Shown piece after piece: positions 119 through 8,573 of a stretch of DNA of 8,573 nucleotides. Positions within the stretch are counted from its first letter, which is position 1; the number at the start of each line of letters is the position of its first letter. The notes under the pieces were generated by a model. That model saw nothing but the letters and a program-made list of their open reading frames with translations, did no database searches and was not told the DNA's origin. Made by a program: the position numbers and the translations under genes. This DNA comes from a bacterium (lineage in GTDB: Bacteria; SZUA-182; DTGQ01), in the NCBI GenBank assembly GCA_040755755.1, contig JBFLZW010000043.1, positions 1-8,573 of the forward strand, written 5' to 3'.

Positions 119-2200
119 TTACCATTCCATCTCCAGGATGGCGAATTTACTCTGCAAGAGGTTCATTACTCCCATGATATTGGCTACCTTCCCTTTGGGC
201 ACCTGGAACCGTAGATGGATTTTATCTTTAACCTTTGGTGGCACTGATGGTGATGCTGTTGGTGATGCTGTTGGTGATATCTGCGGTGATATTGATGATC
301 CTGGTGATGATACTGAAGGTGTAGGCAGTGTTGTAGCCCCCTGGCTGTTTCCCTGGTAACCTGAGATGGGTGGAGAATTCACCGTACCAGATGGTTGGGG
401 GTAGACAGGGTCTTTTGGTTCAGGGAGGATTTCTTTTCTCTTCCTTTGTTCATTGCACAGGGCTTCGCTTATCATGACTTCATTTTCAGAGAAGGCGATT
501 GATGCGGGCTCCTTGAAGTACCGGCAGACTGGAGCATCGTTTTCCATCTCGCCCAGGCCGAAAAGGCCCATACGGACACCTTCACTGATTCCCTGTTCCA
601 GGACAGCTTTGCTCTTTGGCCTTGGTTCTCCAGGGGTCTTGAGGGATGATTGGTAGAGCTGGTCTGTGGAGACATAATCCCTGCCGGAAAGGTACTTCTC
701 TCGGAGGACTAGCGGAGCGATTCTTTCCAGTATCTCTTTATCGGCGCGCAGTTTCTCGTATACCTCGTGATCGAGCCCCTTATCCTCACCATAGGTGGGG
801 ATACCCAGGTCAGCGTCTTTAAACCGCTCCTTATCTGGAATGGCAATGATCCGGTAGAGCATGCGAATGGATTCTTTCAGCCTCGTTCCGGCCTTATCGA
901 GTTCCTTCTTAACTGTTTTCTGCTGCTCGGCAGAGAGATTAAGGCTTTTATCAGCCTCAATATCATCGTAGGCCATCTTGTGCTTCAGGGTATTGATAAA
1001 GCCTGTTCTTTCGGATTCCAGAGGATAGAGGAAAAAGATTGTGTTCCGGTAAACCCGTGGTGTTTGGCCCTTGGTTTTGACGATAGTGCTCATCATTTCA
1101 CTGGCTTCTTGATTAAGAATCACCAGTTTCAATTCTTCCGAATCTGGGATATTGCCTGGATTTTTCTCCCAGATAAAAACTTTCATCTTTCCACCAAGAA
1201 TGCTCTTTTTCAGAAGCTCGCGTTCGGTCTCAACGAGTCTGTCATCCTTGATGTTTTCCATCTTTTTCAGCAGGATACGGTTTAAGTTGGGCTGATTGCT
1301 GAAGAAATATCTCTCGCCGGTATTTTGCAGGTAAAAGAGTTTCCCCCGAAGCTGCTCAACAGCCTCAGCTACAACGCTGGCAGGGTTTTCAGGAGTGGTA
1401 GCGGCCCGCTTGATCTCAGCCGTGGTAATGCCGTGCTCTCTGCCGCCTGAGAAAGAGTGAAGGAATATCGTACGAGCCGCCCTGCTGCCCAGATTGAGCC
1501 CCTGGTAGGCATTGCCCAGTGATGAATCTACCTTCTTGGAACCCGCCTCAATGTTCGTGATATCGGCAGCAATAATGCTGTTGTATTCTTGTCCGAGATG
1601 CTTTACCAGTTCCTGTCGGAGTCCCTGATTAGCCAGGTCAAAATCTGCCGCACTGATGTATGGCTTATTCGATCCTTTTAAGGAGTGTACCACCAGGGAA
1701 AGAAGCCTGAGTACGCCACGGGTCCTCTGAAAGCTCGGAAAACTTCCCCAATGGTGGTAGAGCATGTCCACTACCTCCGGCATGAATGGATATGAGTCAA
1801 GGAATCTATCCCTGTATTCGCTCTGGGATAATCCTGCCGGAAGAATCCCTTCTTTTTCAGCATACCCCATGAAGCATGCTACCGCATCTCTGGCGCTGTC
1901 GTCATCGAGCTGGCTGAATAGCCTCCTTCTGATGATTTTGGTAATCTCGTTTTCCTGAACCGGTGTGTATATCTTTTCAACTCTGCCAGCTACATGCTGT
2001 AACTGCTGGTAAAGTCTTTCCGCCTTTGCATCGTAATGCTCCATAATGCTTGAAGGCAAAGTGACTACCAGGCAAACCTTGGCTAATGTACCTACCGCTT
2101 CGGTGAGTTCCTGCATAAAGGCAATGGTCTGGTTCGCCAGGGTGCTTTCGGCCACTCGCACGCCTGCTGCTTTGGTCACATACTCTAAAACCTCATCCAT
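119..2200 (-). CDS. DUF499-type ATPase, C-terminal fragment lacking Walker A (broken gene)
   Basis: This is the large remaining part of a DUF499 AAA-like ATPase, the usual partner of DUF1156 methyltransferases in a predicted anti-phage locus. The 693 codons begin at an ATG (2200-2198) overlapping the TGA that ends the N-terminal fragment (TGATG), so reinitiation is possible. Visible parts, in order: a Walker B-like ILMDEVLEY at the start, a VTLPSS strand, the FQRTRGVLRLL segment typical of the family, a Pro/Ser/Thr-rich linker with two SPTA units coded by a 12-bp DNA repeat near 249-284, and a short terminal domain with FQVPKGKV. No GxxxxGK[ST] P-loop exists here or upstream. Open reading in the same frame continues up to 2329, but those extra 43 codons translate the repeat region and the true N-terminus in the wrong frame, so they are not counted. 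The protein ends EMEW next to an insertion sequence end; family members seem to run further, so the C-terminus may also be clipped. ATP hydrolysis is unlikely. Confidence 0.8.
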   Translation of the reverse strand: MDEVLEYVTKAAGVRVAESTLANQTIAFMQELTEAVGTLAKVCLVVTLPSSIMEHYDAKAERLYQQLQHVAGRVEKIYTPVQENEITKIIRRRLFSQLDDDSARDAVACFMGYAEKEGILPAGLSQSEYRDRFLDSYPFMPEVVDMLYHHWGSFPSFQRTRGVLRLLSLVVHSLKGSNKPYISAADFDLANQGLRQELVKHLGQEYNSIIAADITNIEAGSKKVDSSLGNAYQGLNLGSRAARTIFLHSFSGGREHGITTAEIKRAATTPENPASVVAEAVEQLRGKLFYLQNTGERYFFSNQPNLNRILLKKMENIKDDRLVETERELLKKSILGGKMKVFIWEKNPGNIPDSEELKLVILNQEASEMMSTIVKTKGQTPRVYRNTIFFLYPLESERTGFINTLKHKMAYDDIEADKSLNLSAEQQKTVKKELDKAGTRLKESIRMLYRIIAIPDKERFKDADLGIPTYGEDKGLDHEVYEKLRADKEILERIAPLVLREKYLSGRDYVSTDQLYQSSLKTPGEPRPKSKAVLEQGISEGVRMGLFGLGEMENDAPVCRYFKEPASIAFSENEVMISEALCNEQRKRKEILPEPKDPVYPQPSGTVNSPPISGYQGNSQGATTLPTPSVSSPGSSISPQISPTASPTASPSVPPKVKDKIHLRFQVPKGKVANIMGVMNLLQSKFAILEMEW

Positions 2201-2286
2201 CAAAATTCTGCGGCAAAGATATCCATTGTGAGCCTGCCCTCTAAAATATCCTGATGGGGAATGGCAATCGTATGAAAGGCTTTCAT
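2200..2286 (-). pseudogene. N-terminal fragment of the broken DUF499 ATPase gene
   Basis: Twenty-eight codons from ATG 2286 read MKAFHTIAIPHQDILEGRL, then TMDIFAAEF, then TGA. The pattern IPHxDILEGxxxxxxFAA is the characteristic start of DUF499 proteins. A strong ribosome site (GGAGG, 2300-2296) lies 9 bases upstream, and the ATG overlaps the TGA of the preceding 63-codon ORF (ATGA). This fixes the authentic start of the ATPase gene. The reading frame is one base out of phase with the remaining gene, and the match jumps from residue 28 to the Walker B-like region. An internal deletion has therefore removed the family segment with the P-loop, probably around 200 codons judging from recalled family members. 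The exact deletion endpoints fall near 2203-2212. Confidence 0.8.
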
Positions 2287-2474
2287 CGGTAATAACCTCC
2301 GTTATAATACCCCCCGTCATGATATCCACTGCTCTGATATCCCCTATTCTGATATCCTCCGGTGCTCTGATCCTTATCTTTGCAGCCGATCTTTGGCTCT
2401 TTACCCGTACCCGCTAAAAACCTGTCTAAAGGTTTCTCATCCTTGCTTTCACCTTTGCTTGCGTCAGGTTTCAT
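2283..2474 (-). CDS. 63-residue ORF resembling the methyltransferase C-terminus, Gly-Tyr repeat tail
   Basis: The ORF starts with ATGA overlap on the stop of the second HepT gene and ends with ATGA overlap on the DUF499 start, so it may be translated at least for coupling. Residues 9-22 (ESKDEKPLDRFLAG) match the end of the upstream DUF1156 methyltransferase (ESKEKKLLDGFLAG) at 10 of 14 positions, and the underlying DNA is also similar. Residues 40-63 are five pentapeptides of the type GYxNx, coded by a 15-bp tandem repeat. The simplest reading is a leftover methyltransferase 3' end from a duplication or a second gene copy, now carried as a linker ORF. No independent function is recognised. 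It may equally be a non-functional remnant kept only because the overlaps couple translation. Confidence 0.5.
   Translation of the reverse strand: MKPDASKGESKDEKPLDRFLAGTGKEPKIGCKDKDQSTGGYQNRGYQSSGYHDGGYYNGGYYR
2286..2357 (-). repeat. 15-bp tandem repeat, copy A (Gly-Tyr pentapeptide code)
   Basis: There are five units on the minus strand: GGATATCAGAATAGG, GGATATCAGAGCAGT, GGATATCATGACGGG, GGGTATTATAACGGA and a shortened last unit. They code GYQNR, GYQSS, GYHDG, GYYNG and GYYR. The same repeat type and period occur just after the methyltransferase (4109-4168); within the two blocks, 2298-2317 and 4121-4140 agree at 18 of 20 bases. Confidence 0.85.
2296..2300 (-). promoter_or_regulatory. Shine-Dalgarno site that sets the DUF499 start
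   Basis: GGAGG lies 9 bases before ATG 2286 on the minus strand. It falls within the 15-bp tandem repeat, so the repeat both codes peptide for the upstream ORF and supplies the ribosome site. It decides that the ATPase starts at 2286 and not at an ATG near 2329 in the frame of the large fragment. Confidence 0.75.
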
Positions 2475-2923
2475 TTTTCTCCCTCTTCAATATCTCCAAC
2501 TTTTCCAACTTCTCCGATTTTTTCATTTTCCTCGGTTTCCTCGGTTTTCTCAGCTTTCTCAGTTTTATCAGATTCATCAATCTCTTCAATCTCTTTTAGT
2601 ATTTTTTTAAATGCCGGTCGTAGGGGCGGAAGTTCTTCTTTCACTGTAATCCATACAATATCTACTTTAACACCGTGATATTCGTGGATTAACATGTCTC
2701 TCATTCCAGCCATATCCCTCCACGGTATCTCAGGGTATCTTTCCCTCATTTTGGGGGGAATCTTCTTAACGCCCTCACCGATGATTTCCAATGCCCGTAT
2801 CACTGCGAAAATGGTTTTATCATCCTTCGCAAATTTATCGTAGGAGATGCCATGAGCAAATTTCATCGCCTTGTCCAAAGCGTCTATGATATCCAGAATA
2901 TAATCTTTAATTTCTCTCTTCAT
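2471..2923 (-). CDS. hepT: HEPN toxin, HepT-like RNase, with a repetitive charged tail
   Basis: This is a HEPN-domain toxin, a metal-independent RNase partner of an MNT nucleotidyltransferase. The core (residues 1-110) carries RALEIIGE, then PEIPWRDMAGMRD, and the catalytic RX4HXY motif as R75, H80 and Y82. In characterised HepT/MntA systems the antitoxin adenylylates the Tyr of this motif; that role here is inferred from the family. Residues 115-150 form an unusual Glu/Lys-rich tail built of tripeptides such as EKT, EKA, EET, coded by a 9-bp tandem repeat. The tail makes the protein longer than its 116-residue paralogue in this window. Its MNT gene lies upstream with an 84-bp spacer full of 16-bp repeats, instead of the usual overlap. 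No clear ribosome site precedes ATG 2923. The stop overlaps the next ORF (ATGA). Confidence 0.9.
   Translation of the reverse strand: MKREIKDYILDIIDALDKAMKFAHGISYDKFAKDDKTIFAVIRALEIIGEGVKKIPPKMRERYPEIPWRDMAGMRDMLIHEYHGVKVDIVWITVKEELPPLRPAFKKILKEIEEIDESDKTEKAEKTEETEENEKIGEVGKVGDIEEGEK
2483..2599 (-). repeat. 9-bp tandem repeat coding the HepT tail
   Basis: Thirteen consecutive 9-bp units can be laid out on the plus strand, for example ttcctcggt twice (2528-2545), then tttctcagc and tttctcagt. The period is a multiple of three, so slippage lengthens or shortens the acidic tail by three residues without breaking the frame. Confidence 0.85.
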
Positions 2924-2930
2924 GGGTTTT

Positions 2931-2978
2931 TATCTTTGCAGCTCTTTATTTTTACAGCTCTTTATCTTTGCAGCCTTA
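2931..2978. repeat. 16-bp tandem repeat between mntA and hepT
   Basis: Three units on the plus strand read TATCTTTGCAGCTCTT, TATTTTTACAGCTCTT and TATCTTTGCAGCCTTA, with partial units continuing to about 3005. The period is not a multiple of three, which fits a non-coding spacer. A similar string (ttatctttgcagcc) recurs at 2374-2387 inside the 63-codon ORF. Confidence 0.8.
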
Positions 2979-3007
2979 CAGCTTTTCCTCTTTGCAGGGT
3001 GCTCTCT

Positions 3008-3307
3008 TTACAGGTAAACAACCTCTTCGAGTATATGCTTTCCTATATTGGGCTTGAGAGCATCTTTCATAACAAGGTCAACTTTCACTCCTAAAAGCTC
3101 ACTGAGGTAATTTTCCATATTGATAAACTTTAAAAGGCCAATCTTAGCCCTACTCTCAAATTCCACGAGAATATCTACATCGCTCACTGCTTTCTGCTCA
3201 CCACGAACGTAAGAGCCAAAAATTCCTATCTCTTTTACTTTATATTTCTGCCTCAGTTCCTCTTTATGATCTCCCACGATACCTTTTATATTTTCAAGGG
3301 TTTTCAT
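3008..3307 (-). CDS. mntA: MNT nucleotidyltransferase antitoxin, MntA-like
   Basis: This is a minimal nucleotidyltransferase of the MntA antitoxin type, expected to transfer AMP to its HEPN partner and so silence the RNase. The signature GSX10DXD is complete: G31-S32 and D43-V44-D45 in GSYVRG...SDVDILV. The third carboxylate is D77 in KVDLV. At 99 residues it has normal family length. The start at 3307 is supported by GAGGAGT at 3321-3315, about 7 bases upstream. It precedes the 150-residue HEPN gene by 84 bp and follows the first HEPN gene after a 145-bp spacer. It resembles the decayed copy near 8240 more than the neighbouring copy at 4093, so the pairs have different origins or ages. Confidence 0.92.
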   Translation of the reverse strand: MKTLENIKGIVGDHKEELRQKYKVKEIGIFGSYVRGEQKAVSDVDILVEFESRAKIGLLKFINMENYLSELLGVKVDLVMKDALKPNIGKHILEEVVYL

Positions 3308-3392
3308 TTTTCTTACTCCTCAAGCTTCAAAAGGTGTGCTGGCAATGACCACCCTCTTGGCCTCCCGTTCGCCCGCTTCATTACACTGTTAC

Positions 3393-3472
3393 TCCAGCTT
3401 GTTTCATTTGAGCCGACTTACTCCAATTGATCCTGATCGATTCCGGTTGGTTTCAGCCTTGTTCCGACTCTT
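3393..3472. repeat. Degenerate 10-bp periodic repeat after the first hepT gene
   Basis: About eight diverged 10-bp units with a common shape (pyrimidine-C, two variable purine-rich bases, then TTG) run from the last codons of the 116-residue HEPN gene into the spacer. On the minus strand they include CCGGAATCGA, TCAGGATCAA and TTGGAGTAAG. Divergence is high, so this is a weaker call than the other arrays. Confidence 0.4.
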
Positions 3473-3803
3473 CTAAGATCTTGCTTATCAATGGTTTAAT
3501 CTTCGGGATAACATCCTTTATCGTATTCCAGACAAGTTCACATTTGATGCCGAAATAAAAATGAATGAGCCTGTCTCTCATCCCTGCCATTTCTCTCCAG
3601 GGGATAGAGGGATAGCTCTTTCTAATGCTTTCTGGAACATTTTTGGTTGCTTCTCCGATAATTTCAAGCTTCCTTATGATGGCACTCGATCTCAGGTCAT
3701 CAGTTCTTAAAGTCTCAAGATCCATCCCTTCTACGAACTTCTCAATGGCTTCCATAGCCTCTATGATATCAGCCAGGTAAAGCTTATGGTTCCTCGTACT
3801 CAT
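3453..3803 (-). CDS. hepT: HEPN toxin, HepT-like RNase
   Basis: This is a 116-residue HEPN toxin of the HepT family. The helical core contains IIRKLEIIGEA (residues 42-52), PSIPWREMAGMRD (65-77) and the active-site RX4HXY motif R76, H81, Y83. Known family members cleave RNA and are kept inactive by adenylylation of this Tyr. The start codon overlaps the stop of the upstream MntA gene (ATGA at 3803-3800), the standard order and coupling for these modules. The 3' end (EESEQG) runs into a 10-bp periodic repeat. The gene sits directly downstream of the DUF1156 methyltransferase unit, so it may be co-transcribed with it. Confidence 0.93.
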   Translation of the reverse strand: MSTRNHKLYLADIIEAMEAIEKFVEGMDLETLRTDDLRSSAIIRKLEIIGEATKNVPESIRKSYPSIPWREMAGMRDRLIHFYFGIKCELVWNTIKDVIPKIKPLISKILEESEQG

Positions 3804-4093
3804 AGGTAAACGGCCTCTTTAAAGACCTGCTCCTTGATTTCTTCCCGAACAGTGTCAGCAGGAACAATGTCCACTCTTACCTTGAGTTTTTCTTCGAGGA
3901 AGTCCGCAATGCCGACGAAATCAAGTAAGGACGCGCCTTCCAGAAACCTTACCAGGATATCTATATCGCTGCTTTCTTTTTGTTCTCCACGGGCATAAGA
4001 ACCAAATACCCCAATAATCTCAGCCTTGTATTTTTGCCTTATTTGATCTTCTAAGCCCTTGAGAATCCTTATAATATTTACAAGCTCTCTCAT
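3800..4093 (-). CDS. mntA: MNT nucleotidyltransferase antitoxin, MntA-like
   Basis: This is a 97-residue MntA-type nucleotidyltransferase, the presumed antitoxin for the overlapping HEPN toxin. The GSX10DXD signature is intact: G31-S32 in GSYARG, D43-I44-D45 in SDIDILV, with D75 (RVDIV) as the third metal ligand. The likely ribosome site AGAGG (4107-4103) lies 9 bases before ATG 4093 and is embedded just past the 15-bp repeat block following the methyltransferase. The gene begins 61 bp after the methyltransferase stop with no obvious terminator between, so read-through transcription is likely. Confidence 0.93.
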   Translation of the reverse strand: MRELVNIIRILKGLEDQIRQKYKAEIIGVFGSYARGEQKESSDIDILVRFLEGASLLDFVGIADFLEEKLKVRVDIVPADTVREEIKEQVFKEAVYL

Positions 4094-4108
4094 TTAAAAT
4101 TACCTCTC

Positions 4109-4168
4109 ATCGGGACGGCTTCCGTTGGAATACCCCCCGTTAGGATAATTCCCGCTAGAATAATTTCC
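4109..4168 (-). repeat. 15-bp tandem repeat, copy B, overlapping the methyltransferase stop
   Basis: Four units on the minus strand: GGAAATTATTCTAGC, GGGAATTATCCTAAC, GGGGGGTATTCCAAC and GGAAGCCGTCCCGAT. Read one frame off the methyltransferase they code GNYSS, GNYPN, GGYSN and GSRPD, the same pentapeptide style as copy A. The methyltransferase TAG stop (4157-4155) lies inside the first unit. Confidence 0.85.
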
Positions 4169-6842
4169 GCTGCCTGGATTCTTGCAATCGCTCCTTACCA
4201 GCTAAAAACCCATCCAGAAGCTTTTTCTCTTTGCTCTCAATAGGCAGTGTCTCGGATACTGCCTGCGCCACACGGAAGAAGGCTTCCTTATCGCCATACC
4301 CTGTGTCCTTAAGCAGTTTCATCATCTCTTCCCGTTTGCTCTTTTCCCAAAGCAGGAGGACGTTATGAAGAATATCTATCAGTTCCGATGCATCCTTAAG
4401 GTCTGCAAGGTTTCTCTCCTGCGGCCCCAAAACCCTGATAAATTCCTTCTCTTTTTTGATGAACCCAGGTCTGCTCCATTCTCTGGGAAGATCAAGGCTG
4501 CACGTACGGGCAAGCTTGTTTGCCTCATCAAACTGAACCTTTGCCTCACCATAATTCCATCGGTAGAGGACATAAAAGCGGGTCAGGTCAGTGATTTCAC
4601 CGGCAAAGCCATTATGCAATATCTGGTGTACGGCATAATCAGTAGAGATTTTTCGTACCTCTTCCAGCAGCCGATCAGCACGCACGATATTGCCTTCATA
4701 ATCCATTACCTTCTCGTATTTGCCAAAAACTTCGATAGCCGAGCCAATGGCCGCAATGAAGAAGTCTGCCCCCCTGATTCCCTCCTCCCAGAGCCGGTCA
4801 AGCTTTTTGTTGAGATGCTGTTTCAGTTCCTCTTTGACCTCATTGTAGAATCCGGTAGGCTGGCGGGTCATCTTGCGGGCGACAATGTAGATGGAAGAGG
4901 CAAGAGCAGCCGATTCCTTGGCTCGAAGTCGTGTTCGCATTTCCGTGTTTATTGGCCAAGCGCCAGTGACGATTAGGCCGGAATCAAGGAGTGAGTTAAT
5001 GAGAGTTTCCCAGCCCTCGGTGGATTTGTGGGCATAGACGATAGTGGTGATACCATTTGGCCTTAAGACACGATAGATTTCTTGGAAGGATTTTTTGAGC
5101 ATAGACTCAAAAAATTGCTTAGAGTTCTCCTTCCCACCATGTCTATAAGGGTCTGATACGATCTCATTTAATTTGGGAGTTACCAGTGTCGAAAACAGTT
5201 CTGGATATAGATCTCCTACTGTCCTTTTTAACCAGACATAAAAGAAGTCCGAAAGATTAGCATATCCAACATTATCATAATAGGGTGGATCAGTGAAAAC
5301 TGCGTCGAAGTAGTTATCGGGATAAGACAATGATGTGGCGGAGGATTGAGTGATGGTGGCGGGAGTGTCAGAGACAAGAGTTTGTTCTAACGAATATATG
5401 ATTCTTTCGACTTGGTCTATAAATGCCCCGCTATGAGAATAGATAGGATTATTTTCAACATAATCCCATGTCATCGGTAGAGCTTGTCGTGCGAAGATAT
5501 CCACTGGACACTCTGCATCCGCTTTCCATCTCGTTAATGTAGATGTAAACATTAAAGTTCTATCTATTCCCAGTCCTAAATAACTAGCCACTGCCTTTGC
5601 ATAATCCTCTCCAAGTTTCGACTCGCTCATGTTCTTGTACGATTCTCTCATTTTCTCTGCAAGGGTAATCAGTGCTAACTTCTGCCTTATATTAAATAAA
5701 TCGCCCCATGTGTTCATTCCGTACATCGGTGGTCGATCTACATCATGACAAGGTATAGGAATTGCCTCATCCGGCACGGGATCTATTCCCCATTCCAACA
5801 TCAGCTTTTCCTGTTTTTCCTTCAAACATTTCTCTGCCTCTCTAAAAATTTCTATATCTTTATCTGTAGCAATTCTATATCGCTTGCCGCTTGTGCTTGG
5901 CTTATGTAAAACCACAGCTATTATCCTCTGCCCAGATTTTCCTTCCCGAAATAATTTTCTTGTTGTTTTATCATCAACGACCGATGGGCAAGCTAAACAC
6001 GTGGCAACTGCCTTTGAAATAGTGCCATTAGAAGGATCAAACCCATCTGGTATCTTTTCATATCCATCGCCCACAATCTTGTACCTCACCTCTCCACCCT
6101 CAACATAGGGGAAAAGGGCAATCTTTTTTTTCTCCTTCTTTGCTAACCAAAATTGACGCATTAAAGGAATCTCGGCACTACATGTTAGATTTTGACAGGG
6201 AATTGTCCTTGCCCAAATATAACCAACAGGAATAGCACCGTCCGCCTCTGTTGGATAAAACCTCCCAATCTCCTTTTCCTCTTCATCTAAAACCCATTTG
6301 CCCCATTTTTTCACATCTTCAAGCAGAGAATTTTGCAAGGGATTAGCCCAGATTAATTTTTTCCCCTTATCTGCTTTTATATCCTTCGATCTTCCATACT
6401 TCTGAGGATACTCAAGGGTGCATTTCTGAATTAAAACCGCAACAGGATTCACGTCATTAGAGTAGGTTTCACATCCCAGGCGAAGAGCTTCCAATGGAAT
6501 AGTCCCACCTCCACCAAAGAGATCGAGCACCTTTGGTGGTTTTCCACCATTTGCCTTCAGTATATCTTCTCTGGCTTTATCAATGAGCTGGCGGCTCAAG
6601 GATTTTTCCCACTTCGAAAATTCGATGATAAACTCTCTCTGTTTATTCCATTCATCAACATTTTCTGGAGCGGGGATCAGGGCTGCATAATTAGTTGCTC
6701 GCCTTGATGCCAGCGGTCGTCTTGCCCACCAGATATGCAGGGTAGATATATGCCCATGCCGGATATTTTTCTCTCTTGCTGATTCTATGCTGACTTCCCG
6801 TACCGGAAAGGTCTCTTCTATGAAGCGCTTATCGTTTATCAT
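4155..6842 (-). CDS. DUF1156-domain adenine-type DNA methyltransferase
   Basis: This is a large DNA methyltransferase of the DUF1156 family, predicted to modify DNA (probably adenine N6) using S-adenosylmethionine. The N-terminus has the family hallmark: FIEETFPVREVS, then GHISTLHIWWARRPLASRRA (residues 30-49). Motif I, DLFGGGGT, is at 107-114 with ND130VNP after it, and the catalytic TDPPYY is near 517-522. Cysteine pairs at 216/221 and 282/285 may form a zinc ribbon. The end QRKLF resembles the usual family terminus, and 895 residues is a normal length, so the gene looks intact. ATG 6842 is the first possible start because an in-frame TAG directly precedes it; GAAAGGG (6860-6854) is the nearest ribosome site, 11 bases away. 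It leads the operon, followed by two MntA/HepT pairs and the broken DUF499 ATPase, its usual partner in a predicted defence set. Confidence 0.92.
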   Translation of the reverse strand: MINDKRFIEETFPVREVSIESAREKNIRHGHISTLHIWWARRPLASRRATNYAALIPAPENVDEWNKQREFIIEFSKWEKSLSRQLIDKAREDILKANGGKPPKVLDLFGGGGTIPLEALRLGCETYSNDVNPVAVLIQKCTLEYPQKYGRSKDIKADKGKKLIWANPLQNSLLEDVKKWGKWVLDEEEKEIGRFYPTEADGAIPVGYIWARTIPCQNLTCSAEIPLMRQFWLAKKEKKKIALFPYVEGGEVRYKIVGDGYEKIPDGFDPSNGTISKAVATCLACPSVVDDKTTRKLFREGKSGQRIIAVVLHKPSTSGKRYRIATDKDIEIFREAEKCLKEKQEKLMLEWGIDPVPDEAIPIPCHDVDRPPMYGMNTWGDLFNIRQKLALITLAEKMRESYKNMSESKLGEDYAKAVASYLGLGIDRTLMFTSTLTRWKADAECPVDIFARQALPMTWDYVENNPIYSHSGAFIDQVERIIYSLEQTLVSDTPATITQSSATSLSYPDNYFDAVFTDPPYYDNVGYANLSDFFYVWLKRTVGDLYPELFSTLVTPKLNEIVSDPYRHGGKENSKQFFESMLKKSFQEIYRVLRPNGITTIVYAHKSTEGWETLINSLLDSGLIVTGAWPINTEMRTRLRAKESAALASSIYIVARKMTRQPTGFYNEVKEELKQHLNKKLDRLWEEGIRGADFFIAAIGSAIEVFGKYEKVMDYEGNIVRADRLLEEVRKISTDYAVHQILHNGFAGEITDLTRFYVLYRWNYGEAKVQFDEANKLARTCSLDLPREWSRPGFIKKEKEFIRVLGPQERNLADLKDASELIDILHNVLLLWEKSKREEMMKLLKDTGYGDKEAFFRVAQAVSETLPIESKEKKLLDGFLAGKERLQESRQRKLF

Positions 6843-7326: not shown

Positions 7327-7881
7327 CTACCATATTTGGGGCTTAAATTTTTCATCATTGAGGATAGCCACGCTCTCTCCTCTTTCCACTATGATAAATA
7401 ACCCTTTTCTATAAGCGTACTTATCCGCTTTTTCCTCTATGGCGAGCGCTCCTACTGCTCCGATCACTTTTCTGTCCTGATATTCAGGAAAAAATCCCTT
7501 AAAGTTTTTCAATCTCTCTAAATGTTCATCGACGTCTTCTATTCTCAGGGTGCTCTTGGCTTCTATTAATACTGCATATTCACCATTTATGGCCAGGATG
7601 TCTATTTCTATTCCAAACCCGTTTTTTTGCTTCTTAACTCTTTGATAGATGGTATCTACCTTTATCTCTCGCTCTTTAAACAGCCTTATTACCGAAGGAG
7701 CGATTGAATTTTCTACAAATTTGCCCCATTTTCCTGTCAGGGCATTCACTGCCTTGCTCGTCCTATTGATTTCATCGTTTGTTTCTTTAATTCTTTGATC
7801 CGTTTCTTTAAATCTTTGATCTGTTTCTTTAAACAGATTCCATATCTCCTGAAATCCCTTCTCTATTTCTATATTAGTCAT
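7327..7881 (-). CDS. Coiled-coil protein with PD-(D/E)XK nuclease-like domain
   Basis: This is a 184-residue protein. Residues 10-50 form a predicted coiled coil made of three heptads, FKETDQR, FKETDQR and IKETNDE, coded by a 21-bp DNA repeat (about 7771-7833). The C-terminal half fits the PD-(D/E)XK nuclease fold: E57 in GKFVEN, D94 in GIEIDILA, and E107-A108-K109 in VLIEAKS. Related proteins are commonly annotated DUF3782 or as uncharacterised PD-(D/E)XK proteins; that label is from memory. Whether it cleaves DNA is unknown. The start at 7881 has AAAGGAG about 7 bases upstream. It lies 12 bp after the truncated HEPN remnant and may have taken the place of that toxin's 3' end. Confidence 0.8.
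   Translation of the reverse strand: MTNIEIEKGFQEIWNLFKETDQRFKETDQRIKETNDEINRTSKAVNALTGKWGKFVENSIAPSVIRLFKEREIKVDTIYQRVKKQKNGFGIEIDILAINGEYAVLIEAKSTLRIEDVDEHLERLKNFKGFFPEYQDRKVIGAVGALAIEEKADKYAYRKGLFIIVERGESVAILNDEKFKPQIW
7771..7833 (-). repeat. 21-bp repeat coding coiled-coil heptads
   Basis: Two near-identical 21-bp units and a third diverged one code FKETDQR, FKETDQR and IKETNDE. The period equals one heptad, so changes in copy number would lengthen or shorten the coiled coil without breaking its register. Confidence 0.75.
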
Positions 7882-7893
7882 AAGATATCTCCT

Positions 7894-8019
7894 TTATATA
7901 TGGAGGAGCGAAATTGGGACTTGTCCCAATTTCCAAAAGCCCATATTATGCACAAAATCTTCAATTTTATTTATGCTATCCAGGATATCTTTAACAAAAA
8001 GCCCGTAATCTCGCTTCAA
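7894..8019 (-). pseudogene. Truncated HEPN (HepT) toxin remnant
   Basis: From a TTG at 8019, which overlaps the stop of the upstream MntA-like gene (TTGA), the frame reads LKRDYGLFVKDILDSINKIE, then DFVHNMGF. This matches the start of HepT toxins such as the 150-residue copy in this window (MKREIKDYILDIIDAL...). After about 28 codons the similarity stops; 13 unrelated codons follow, most of them spanning a palindrome, and end at TAA 7896-7894. The IIGE segment and the RX4HXY active site are absent, so no RNase can be made. Confidence 0.75.
7910..7933. repeat. Perfect 11-bp palindrome inside the HEPN remnant
   Basis: GAAATTGGGAC and GTCCCAATTTC flank a two-base centre. It sits exactly where HEPN similarity ends, as expected for a mobile or REP-like palindrome that accompanied the truncation. 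A role as an operator or hairpin for the downstream nuclease-like gene is possible. Confidence 0.75.
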
Positions 8020-8240
8020 ACATAGACTACCTCTTTTAAGATGAGGTCTTTTAGTTCTGGCCAAATAGCCTTCTTTCTGACGAGATCAACCTTTACCTTA
8101 AGGAGCTTTTCAAGATATCTCTCAAGTTCAATGAATTTAAACAAGTCTGGGACTTCATCAAACTCAACCAGGATATCCACGTCACTCCTCTTTTTCTGCT
8201 CACCTCTGGCATACGAGCCAAATATCCCGATTTCTCTCAC
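8016..8240 (-). CDS. mntA: MntA-like nucleotidyltransferase antitoxin, 5' end damaged
   Basis: This is a third MntA copy. From GTG 8240 it has 74 codons with the catalytic signature intact: G8-S9 (GSYARG), D20-V21-D22 and D52. The normal N-terminal helix is broken. Upstream, ATG 8281 starts METLAE, matching the MKTLEN start of the copy at 3307, but that frame ends at TGA 8239-8237. The matching stretch REELHKKYKV, directly before GTG 8240, is in another frame. Comparison with the 99-residue copy suggests a deletion of about 28 bases. The GTG overlaps that TGA (GTGA), so a shortened protein might still be made by reinitiation. Its HEPN partner directly downstream is also truncated, so the pair is probably decaying. 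Confidence 0.75.
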   Translation of the reverse strand: MREIGIFGSYARGEQKKRSDVDILVEFDEVPDLFKFIELERYLEKLLKVKVDLVRKKAIWPELKDLILKEVVYV

Positions 8241-8281
8241 TTTGTATTTCTTATGCAGTTCTTCTCTGCAAGGGTCTCCAT

Positions 8282-8573
8282 TTTTTCATCCTCCACCTTC
8301 CGGCCTTGGAACTGATGATTAAAAGTTGGGATGGGGAACCCCTCATTTCTAATCACTAATTCTCTTCGTCTTCCCCCTGATATCATCTTGGCCTACAGCG
8401 TGCATGATAATTCAAAAGCTTCCTCATACTAAGGCGCTTTGCTCTGTTAAGGGGAATGGCACTTACATAAGAATTAGTAATTCTCCCGCAGAGACGCTGA
8501 GACGCAGAGGATATCATTGAAAAGTAAAAGTAAAACAAGTTCCTCCTTGTGCCTTTTTACTTTTTGCTTGCTT
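8282..8573. other. Intergenic stretch with dispersed short repeats
   Basis: No gene is supported here. A perfect palindrome with arms AGAATTA and TAATTCT lies at 8470-8484. It is followed by the string gcagagacgctgagacgcag, a type of simple intergenic repeat seen in many bacterial genomes. Near the edge an imperfect inverted repeat pairs aaaagtaaaagtaaaacaag (about 8520-8539) with cttgtgcctttttacttttt, able to form a hairpin. Confidence 0.5.

Follow-up and report, generated by a model that had tools for sequence, protein, structure and literature searches.

Two MntA-HepT pairs and a duplicated hmaB-hmaC junction in a partly decayed Hma operon

A Hma operon carrying two MntA-HepT pairs

We analyzed a stretch of 8573 bp, hereafter the window, which is the whole of contig C43 (JBFLZW010000043.1) in an assembly of 5.26 Mb and 88 contigs, taken here as a metagenome-assembled genome. 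It carries a defense operon of the helicase-methylase-ATPase (Hma) type, in which two MntA-HepT toxin-antitoxin (TA) pairs lie between the methylase gene hmaB and the ATPase gene hmaC. The genes of interest are all on the minus strand and run in the order decayed mntA-hepT, DUF3782-like gene, hmaB, mntA1, hepT1, mntA2, hepT2, a 63-codon open reading frame (ORF63) and hmaC (Table 1). Since PADLOC calls both HmaB and HmaC, we assigned the operon to the Hma type, also known as the DUF499-centred BREX-related (BR) system.

Table 1 Features of the window, with the evidence for each
Feature	Position	Strand	Evidence
hmaB, DUF1156 DNA adenine methyltransferase, 895 aa, apparently intact	4155-6842	-	PADLOC HmaB 1.5e-140; Pfam DUF1156 1.7e-22; FGGGG and DPPYY motifs
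mntA1, minimal nucleotidyltransferase antitoxin, GSX10DXD intact	3800-4093	-	Pfam NTP_transf_2 4.6e-16; NCBIfam MntA 6.9e-14, under score cut-off
hepT1, HEPN RNase toxin, RX4HXY intact, 4-nt overlap with mntA1	3453-3803	-	Pfam HepT-like 3.2e-28
mntA2, second antitoxin, GSX10DXD intact	3008-3307	-	Pfam NTP_transf_2 6.1e-19
hepT2, second toxin, RX4HXY intact	2471-2923	-	Pfam HepT-like 4.6e-28
ORF63, duplicated hmaB-end remnant in frame with Gly-Tyr repeat; 4-nt overlaps with hepT2 and hmaC start	2283-2474	-	
hmaC (DUF499/HmaC ATPase) pseudogene	119-2286	-	PADLOC HmaC 4.5e-85; comparison with relatives
Block A, hmaB 3' end followed by 15-bp Gly-Tyr repeat	4121-4239	-	Repeat search, gapped alignment, 3'-end comparison
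Block B, second, diverged copy of block A, ending near GGAGGTTATT	2298-2451	-	Repeat search, gapped alignment, tile ranking
DUF3782-like gene, predicted PD-(D/E)XK, upstream of hmaB	7327-7881	-	Pfam DUF3782 4.8e-5, just below cut-off; weak CARF_PDDEXK matches
Decayed third mntA-hepT pair in the hmaA-hmaB slot: frame-shifted mntA3, truncated hepT3 fragment	7894-8267	-	

The methylase expected of such a system, a DUF1156-type adenine methylase, is recognized by both PADLOC and Pfam. It is 67-68% identical over nearly its full length to the HmaB of two related loci (L045 and L047), and its C-terminus reads Q-R-K-L-F-stop, with relatives ending in K-K-L-F or T-R-L-F.

The two MntA/HepT pairs named in a preliminary description of this DNA are real. 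Both consist of an MntA nucleotidyltransferase (PF01909) with a complete GSX10DXD motif and a HepT HEPN protein (PF01934) with a complete RX4HXY motif, as in type VII TA systems. Against structures in PDB, MntA1 matched 1wot (1.6e-13) and an Mnt antidote (5yep and others, 6e-4), and HepT2 had no match by sequence at 0.001. HepT2 ends in a low-complexity Glu/Lys tail of ~35 aa built from 9-bp repeats. As pair 1 and pair 2 are only 45-47% identical, we consider them two old modules, and neither a recent copy nor the products of a block duplication.

The end of hmaB is repeated ahead of hmaC

The preliminary description had also noted the same composite block on both sides of the island, and here its coordinates and counts are right: on direct reading, 4121-4140 and 2298-2317 share 18 of 20 bases. 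An ungapped repeat search paired 2298-2324 with 4121-4147 at 85%, and 2405-2451 with 4193-4239 at 72%. Gapped alignment links the two parts collinearly over the whole of blocks A and B with a score of 47, against a maximum of 39 among 1000 dinucleotide shuffles, and either half taken singly outscores all 1000. When 4952 tiles of 240 bp from the same genome and related loci were ranked against block B, block A came first; the best tile outside the window, with a score of 33, came from a relative (L028), at the 3' end of its hmaB. The single parts are less telling. The Gly-Tyr half on its own is not significant (E 0.33 genome-wide), and a hidden Markov model built from 10 other HmaB tails gave the ORF63 product a weak 6.3 bits, a score that 1 of 2000 shuffled versions surpassed. 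Thus, it is the collinearity of the two parts that carries the case for duplication.

In block A, the 15-bp array (4136-4171) overlaps hmaB at its final codons and stop, and no Gly-Tyr array was found in the 10 other hmaB 3' ends. Block B was therefore probably copied inside this lineage. In the simplest reading, the array would have grown out of the hmaB end in this lineage, with block B copied afterwards. A foreign hmaB as the source of block B is disfavored, as none of those 10 ends has the repeat, and a tandem duplication of a whole block-MntA-HepT unit was rejected, given the divergence of the pairs and the lack of a block between them. No transposase or integrase was recognized among the genes between the blocks.

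The contig holds many short tandem arrays. One of them, a 16-bp repeat (TTTATCTTTGCAGCTC) between mntA2 and hepT2 (2929-2997), has a 17-bp motif in common with the spacer of block B (2371-2387).

An indel in block B brings the hmaB-like tail and the array into one frame, creating ORF63. This reading frame had no match in Pfam, NCBIfam, PADLOC, its own genome, the related loci or phage records, and we rejected the idea that it is a conserved gene. Most plausibly, it is what remains of the duplicated hmaB end and now bears the ribosome-binding site of hmaC, which is likely the string GGAGGTTATT at its end. In one relative with an empty junction (L031), a near-identical string forms the end of hmaB itself. 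The duplication would thus have allowed hmaC to retain its start context after the junction was split.

The hmaC gene is broken

The preliminary description was right in placing the methylase and the ATPase on either side of the island; it overlooked that the ATPase gene is broken. The 5' part of the 736-aa ATPase ORF is out of frame, so it is not the true hmaC reading frame there. Judged by relatives, hmaC starts at the ATG at 2286, overlapping the ORF63 stop, from where it reads MKAFHTIAIPHQDILEGRLTMDIFAAEF and then meets a stop after 28 codons. Homology picks up again at residue 156 in a different frame. Four relatives have FAA(D) or YAAD from residue 24, Walker A at 83 and LMDE at 157, from which we deduce that ~385 nt are absent here, corresponding to residues ~28-155 of the relatives and including Walker A. 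The missing segment was not found elsewhere in the assembly, which contains only paralogues of 37-47%. At the low end, close to where the contig finishes, the match extends only to residue 814 of 846, and the last ~32 residues are absent. Just past this premature end, at 72-118, lie two direct 23-bp copies of GGTGGGGGAATTTTCG..TG.CA; these look like the ends of an insertion sequence, and the HmaC C-terminus may have been lost to an insertion.

Homology to the DUF499 ATPase is clear, with Walker A lost and the frame broken, and we consequently file the locus as a decayed Hma operon and not as a working one. As hmaC is broken, the core system is incomplete in this copy. The suggestion that expression of the toxins depends on an intact module finds no support, as hmaC has lost both Walker A and its frame while the two pairs are intact.

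Related operons show the junction empty or filled with other modules

The preliminary description had proposed a search of homologous loci for empty sites and for sites with other numbers of pairs. Both kinds of allele were found. The hmaB-hmaC junction is empty in L031, L032, L033, L034 and L028/L047; in L031 and L032 the two genes overlap by ATGA. Unrelated cargo fills it in five others: one MntA-HepT pair with a small ORF and another nucleotidyltransferase in L027 (archaeon LFW-280), whose HepT is without the R of RX4HXY; DUF433 and TumE-like genes in L045; DUF4062, DUF433 and DUF5615 genes in L049; MNT-HEPN, DUF2283 and an AAA/OLD-like ATPase pair in L052; and an ATPase pair of the same kind in L053. 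On Thermus thermophilus plasmids (L083, L077) the slot holds HicB-RelE in JL-18 and HicA-HicB in HB8, with both flanks 96-97% identical, and in T. oshimai hmaC lies within ~100 bp of hmaB-like sequence. No long repeat was seen in these filled and empty Thermus alleles. Since related Hma operons show it empty or with different modules, the hmaB-hmaC junction is a slot in which modules are exchanged recurrently. A second slot lies between hmaA and hmaB: it holds MntA-HepT in L046 and in L014, a paralogous operon from the genome of the window, and RelE-HigA in Planktothrix.

The description had named two outcomes as telling against its reading, a lack of empty alleles and a 63-codon ORF that is an ordinary conserved gene. 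Neither came about, since empty alleles exist and ORF63 has no conserved relative as far as searched. Its observation is confirmed and its interpretation partly supported: a TA cassette does lie between methylase and ATPase, and what did not hold is the idea of direct repeats as a general boundary. None of the five other filled loci has a convincing copy of the hmaB tail before hmaC; in five tests, the tail score was reached by 347 (L027), 36 (L045), 23 (L049), 294 (L052) and 11 (L053) of 500 shuffles. L053 has a near-copy of the final 16 nt of hmaB (GAGGTTGTTTGAATGA), with 15 of 16 matches, directly before hmaC (GGAGGTTATTTGAATGA), a match that is confounded because it spans a ribosome-binding site and ATGA, which are expected there anyway. 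We conclude that the direct repeats are private to the window locus and do not reflect a general insertion mechanism. Likewise, with no comparable flanking copy in these five loci, the terminal repeats or target-site duplication that independent insertions of a transposon or integron cassette would have in common are missing.

We also compared the state of hmaC between the two kinds of locus. It is incomplete or stopped in four of six filled loci (the window, L052, L053 and L049) and in none of five empty ones (Fisher p 0.06), which is only a lead, as the numbers are small and the loci are not a random sample. In L052, hmaC (12267-13214) is reduced to 315 aa, in which the initial ~58 residues are fused to the final ~256; here, too, a filled locus has lost the AAA core, and it did so independently. 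The L053 gene (3631-6183) is full-length except for one in-frame stop at codon 142, and that of L049 breaks off close to a transposase-like gene and the start of its contig.

Neighboring features

An hmaA gene of matching orientation, without stops and 72% identical to the HmaA of L047, lies at the very end of another contig of the assembly, C23 (ending at 209); the break between C23 and C43 is unbridged. The C23 end past hmaA (L081, 34-126) and the window at 8454-8509 have GAATGGCACTTACATAAG-like and CGCAGAGACGCAGAG-like motifs in common, in inverted order, a pattern that might come about if the gap between hmaA and mntA3 contained a repeat element whose ends are inverted and which broke the assembly. 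The decayed third pair is relatively close to the pair that occupies the same slot in L046 (54% and 57%).

The genome of the window carries three more, distant Hma-like operons (L013, L014, L015), and the hmaB match in L015 includes a stop. No tRNA or Rfam RNA that could have served as an integration site was found. No HmaB relatives were found in viral contigs, and in phage records only distant STSV methylases matched.

A model for the origin of the locus

We propose that this is a partly decayed Hma operon whose junctions are recurrent landing sites for modules, and that the two MntA-HepT pairs entered the hmaB-hmaC junction, which was duplicated. We give this account a probability of about 0.72. 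In our model, two type VII pairs would have come into the junction and, during entry or in a later rearrangement, the junction itself, comprising the hmaB 3' end, the 15-bp repeat derived from it and the hmaC start context, would have been duplicated. One copy would have stayed with hmaB as its own end and the other with hmaC as its translation-start context, this second copy persisting as the ORF63 remnant, coupled on both sides through ATGA overlaps. We infer, and do not read directly, the order of duplication and decay. The pairs are most likely co-transcribed with hmaB. By analogy with characterized pairs, MntA would adenylylate the HepT RNase and silence it, and release of HepT would lead to an abortive or growth-arrest response. 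Such a response may back up the core system, or it may merely outlive it.

Several points weigh against this account. The similarity of the two blocks is modest (99 of 158 aligned columns, including gaps) and their Gly-Tyr portion is of low complexity. The gaps before mntA1 (61 nt) and mntA2 (145 nt) are possible sites of separate promoters; a promoter consensus scan gave no more matches than chance and is uninformative. In addition, the hmaC deletion is possibly a minority or misassembled state, because the window makes up an entire contig in a metagenome-assembled genome.

Another history, which we consider unlikely but worth keeping in mind, makes block B the stump of a second hmaB: the hmaB region would have been copied in tandem, the pairs would have settled ahead of the second copy, and that copy would then have been deleted almost entirely. 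The position of MntA-HepT directly upstream of hmaB in L046 and L014 fits this history, as does the extent of block B, which begins within the hmaB tail and runs to hmaC. However, the similarity begins less than 30 codons before the hmaB stop, with no further hmaB remnant upstream of the tail, and the present data do not separate such a stump from a small junction duplication.

We find it harder to believe that the blocks are the general footprint of a form of recombination in which every insertion of a cassette duplicates the hmaB-hmaC junction and so keeps both ATGA couplings. Blocks A and B exist, the hmaB end recurs before hmaC in L053, and a similar string lies at the gene overlap of L031. 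Yet L027, L045, L049 and L052 are without a convincing copy, a short match is equally expected from a ribosome-binding site followed by ATGA, and the Thermus alleles have no long repeat. For the broader idea that Hma junctions are dedicated exchange slots, which would take up cargo by duplicating the overlapping hmaB end and hmaC start, with coupling kept on both sides and TA cargo persisting as the ATPase decays, our expectation is similarly low.

Somewhat more doubtful still is a role of the pairs as addiction guards that hold the operon in the genome, with the toxins set free once the module was lost. TA cargo does recur at the junctions of several Hma operons, and there is a precedent in CreTA, which guards CRISPR-Cas. 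Nevertheless, each pair has its own antitoxin and hmaC was lost with the pairs intact, from which we conclude that they did not protect hmaC; the excess of defective hmaC genes in filled loci also speaks against guarding. Finally, it is very improbable that the blocks resemble each other through convergent microsatellite growth and a chance tail match, as the abundance of short arrays and the insignificant Gly-Tyr half might suggest, given that tail and repeat are collinear, that none of 1000 shuffles reached their score, that block A was the best of all tiles and that the best source outside the window was another hmaB end.

With duplication of the junction around the incoming pairs as our preferred account, the locus has two implications. 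In this type of defense operon, junctions serve repeatedly as slots for modules, in bacteria as well as in archaea, and the alleles seen range over empty, one-pair, two-pair and swapped ones. Moreover, intact TA cargo beside a dead core ATPase gene bears on whether such cargo acts as a backup effector of the operon or is mainly self-serving.

Comparison with known systems

The reference for type VII TA systems is the HepT/MntA pair SO_3166/SO_3165, in which GSX10DXD and RX4HXY have been tied to the adenylylation mechanism (PMC7641770). Like it, the window pairs have the antitoxin gene first, the toxin gene overlapping or nearby, and both motifs. In contrast, their identity to the reference is low and their NCBIfam scores fall below the cut-offs, and here two diverged pairs sit side by side in a defense operon, with an additional low-complexity tail on hepT2.

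HEPN RNases within operons of methylase, ATPase and helicase genes (restriction-modification, Pgl) have been proposed as suicide or backup effectors (Anantharaman 2013, PMC3710099). The HEPN RNases of the window likewise sit inside such an operon, but as standalone MNT-HEPN pairs in an exchange slot and not fused to the ATPase. The association of a TA module with a defense locus also recalls CreTA. CreTA requires Cascade for silencing of its toxin, whereas MntA-HepT, as far as known, requires no Hma component.

Hma systems are the DUF499-centred BR systems (PMC8565338, PMC12839542), and the window agrees with them in its DUF1156 methylase adjoining a DUF499/HmaC ATPase; the candidate hmaA at the end of C23, in matching orientation, would complete the likeness. 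Auxiliary HEPN, TOPRIM/OLD and PD-(D/E)XK effectors within the core loci have already been described (PMC8565338, PMC12839542), and the HEPN and TOPRIM/OLD modules were proposed to be backup suicide effectors (PMC12839542), a proposal that, by analogy, would fit the pairs of the window. Unlike the described Hma loci, the window has an hmaC pseudogene, and copies of the hmaB end flank its two MntA-HepT pairs. The parts are thus of known kinds, and BREX-related operons with HEPN/MNT modules have been reported before; what is unusual here is a broken operon whose junction is duplicated on either side of the cargo.

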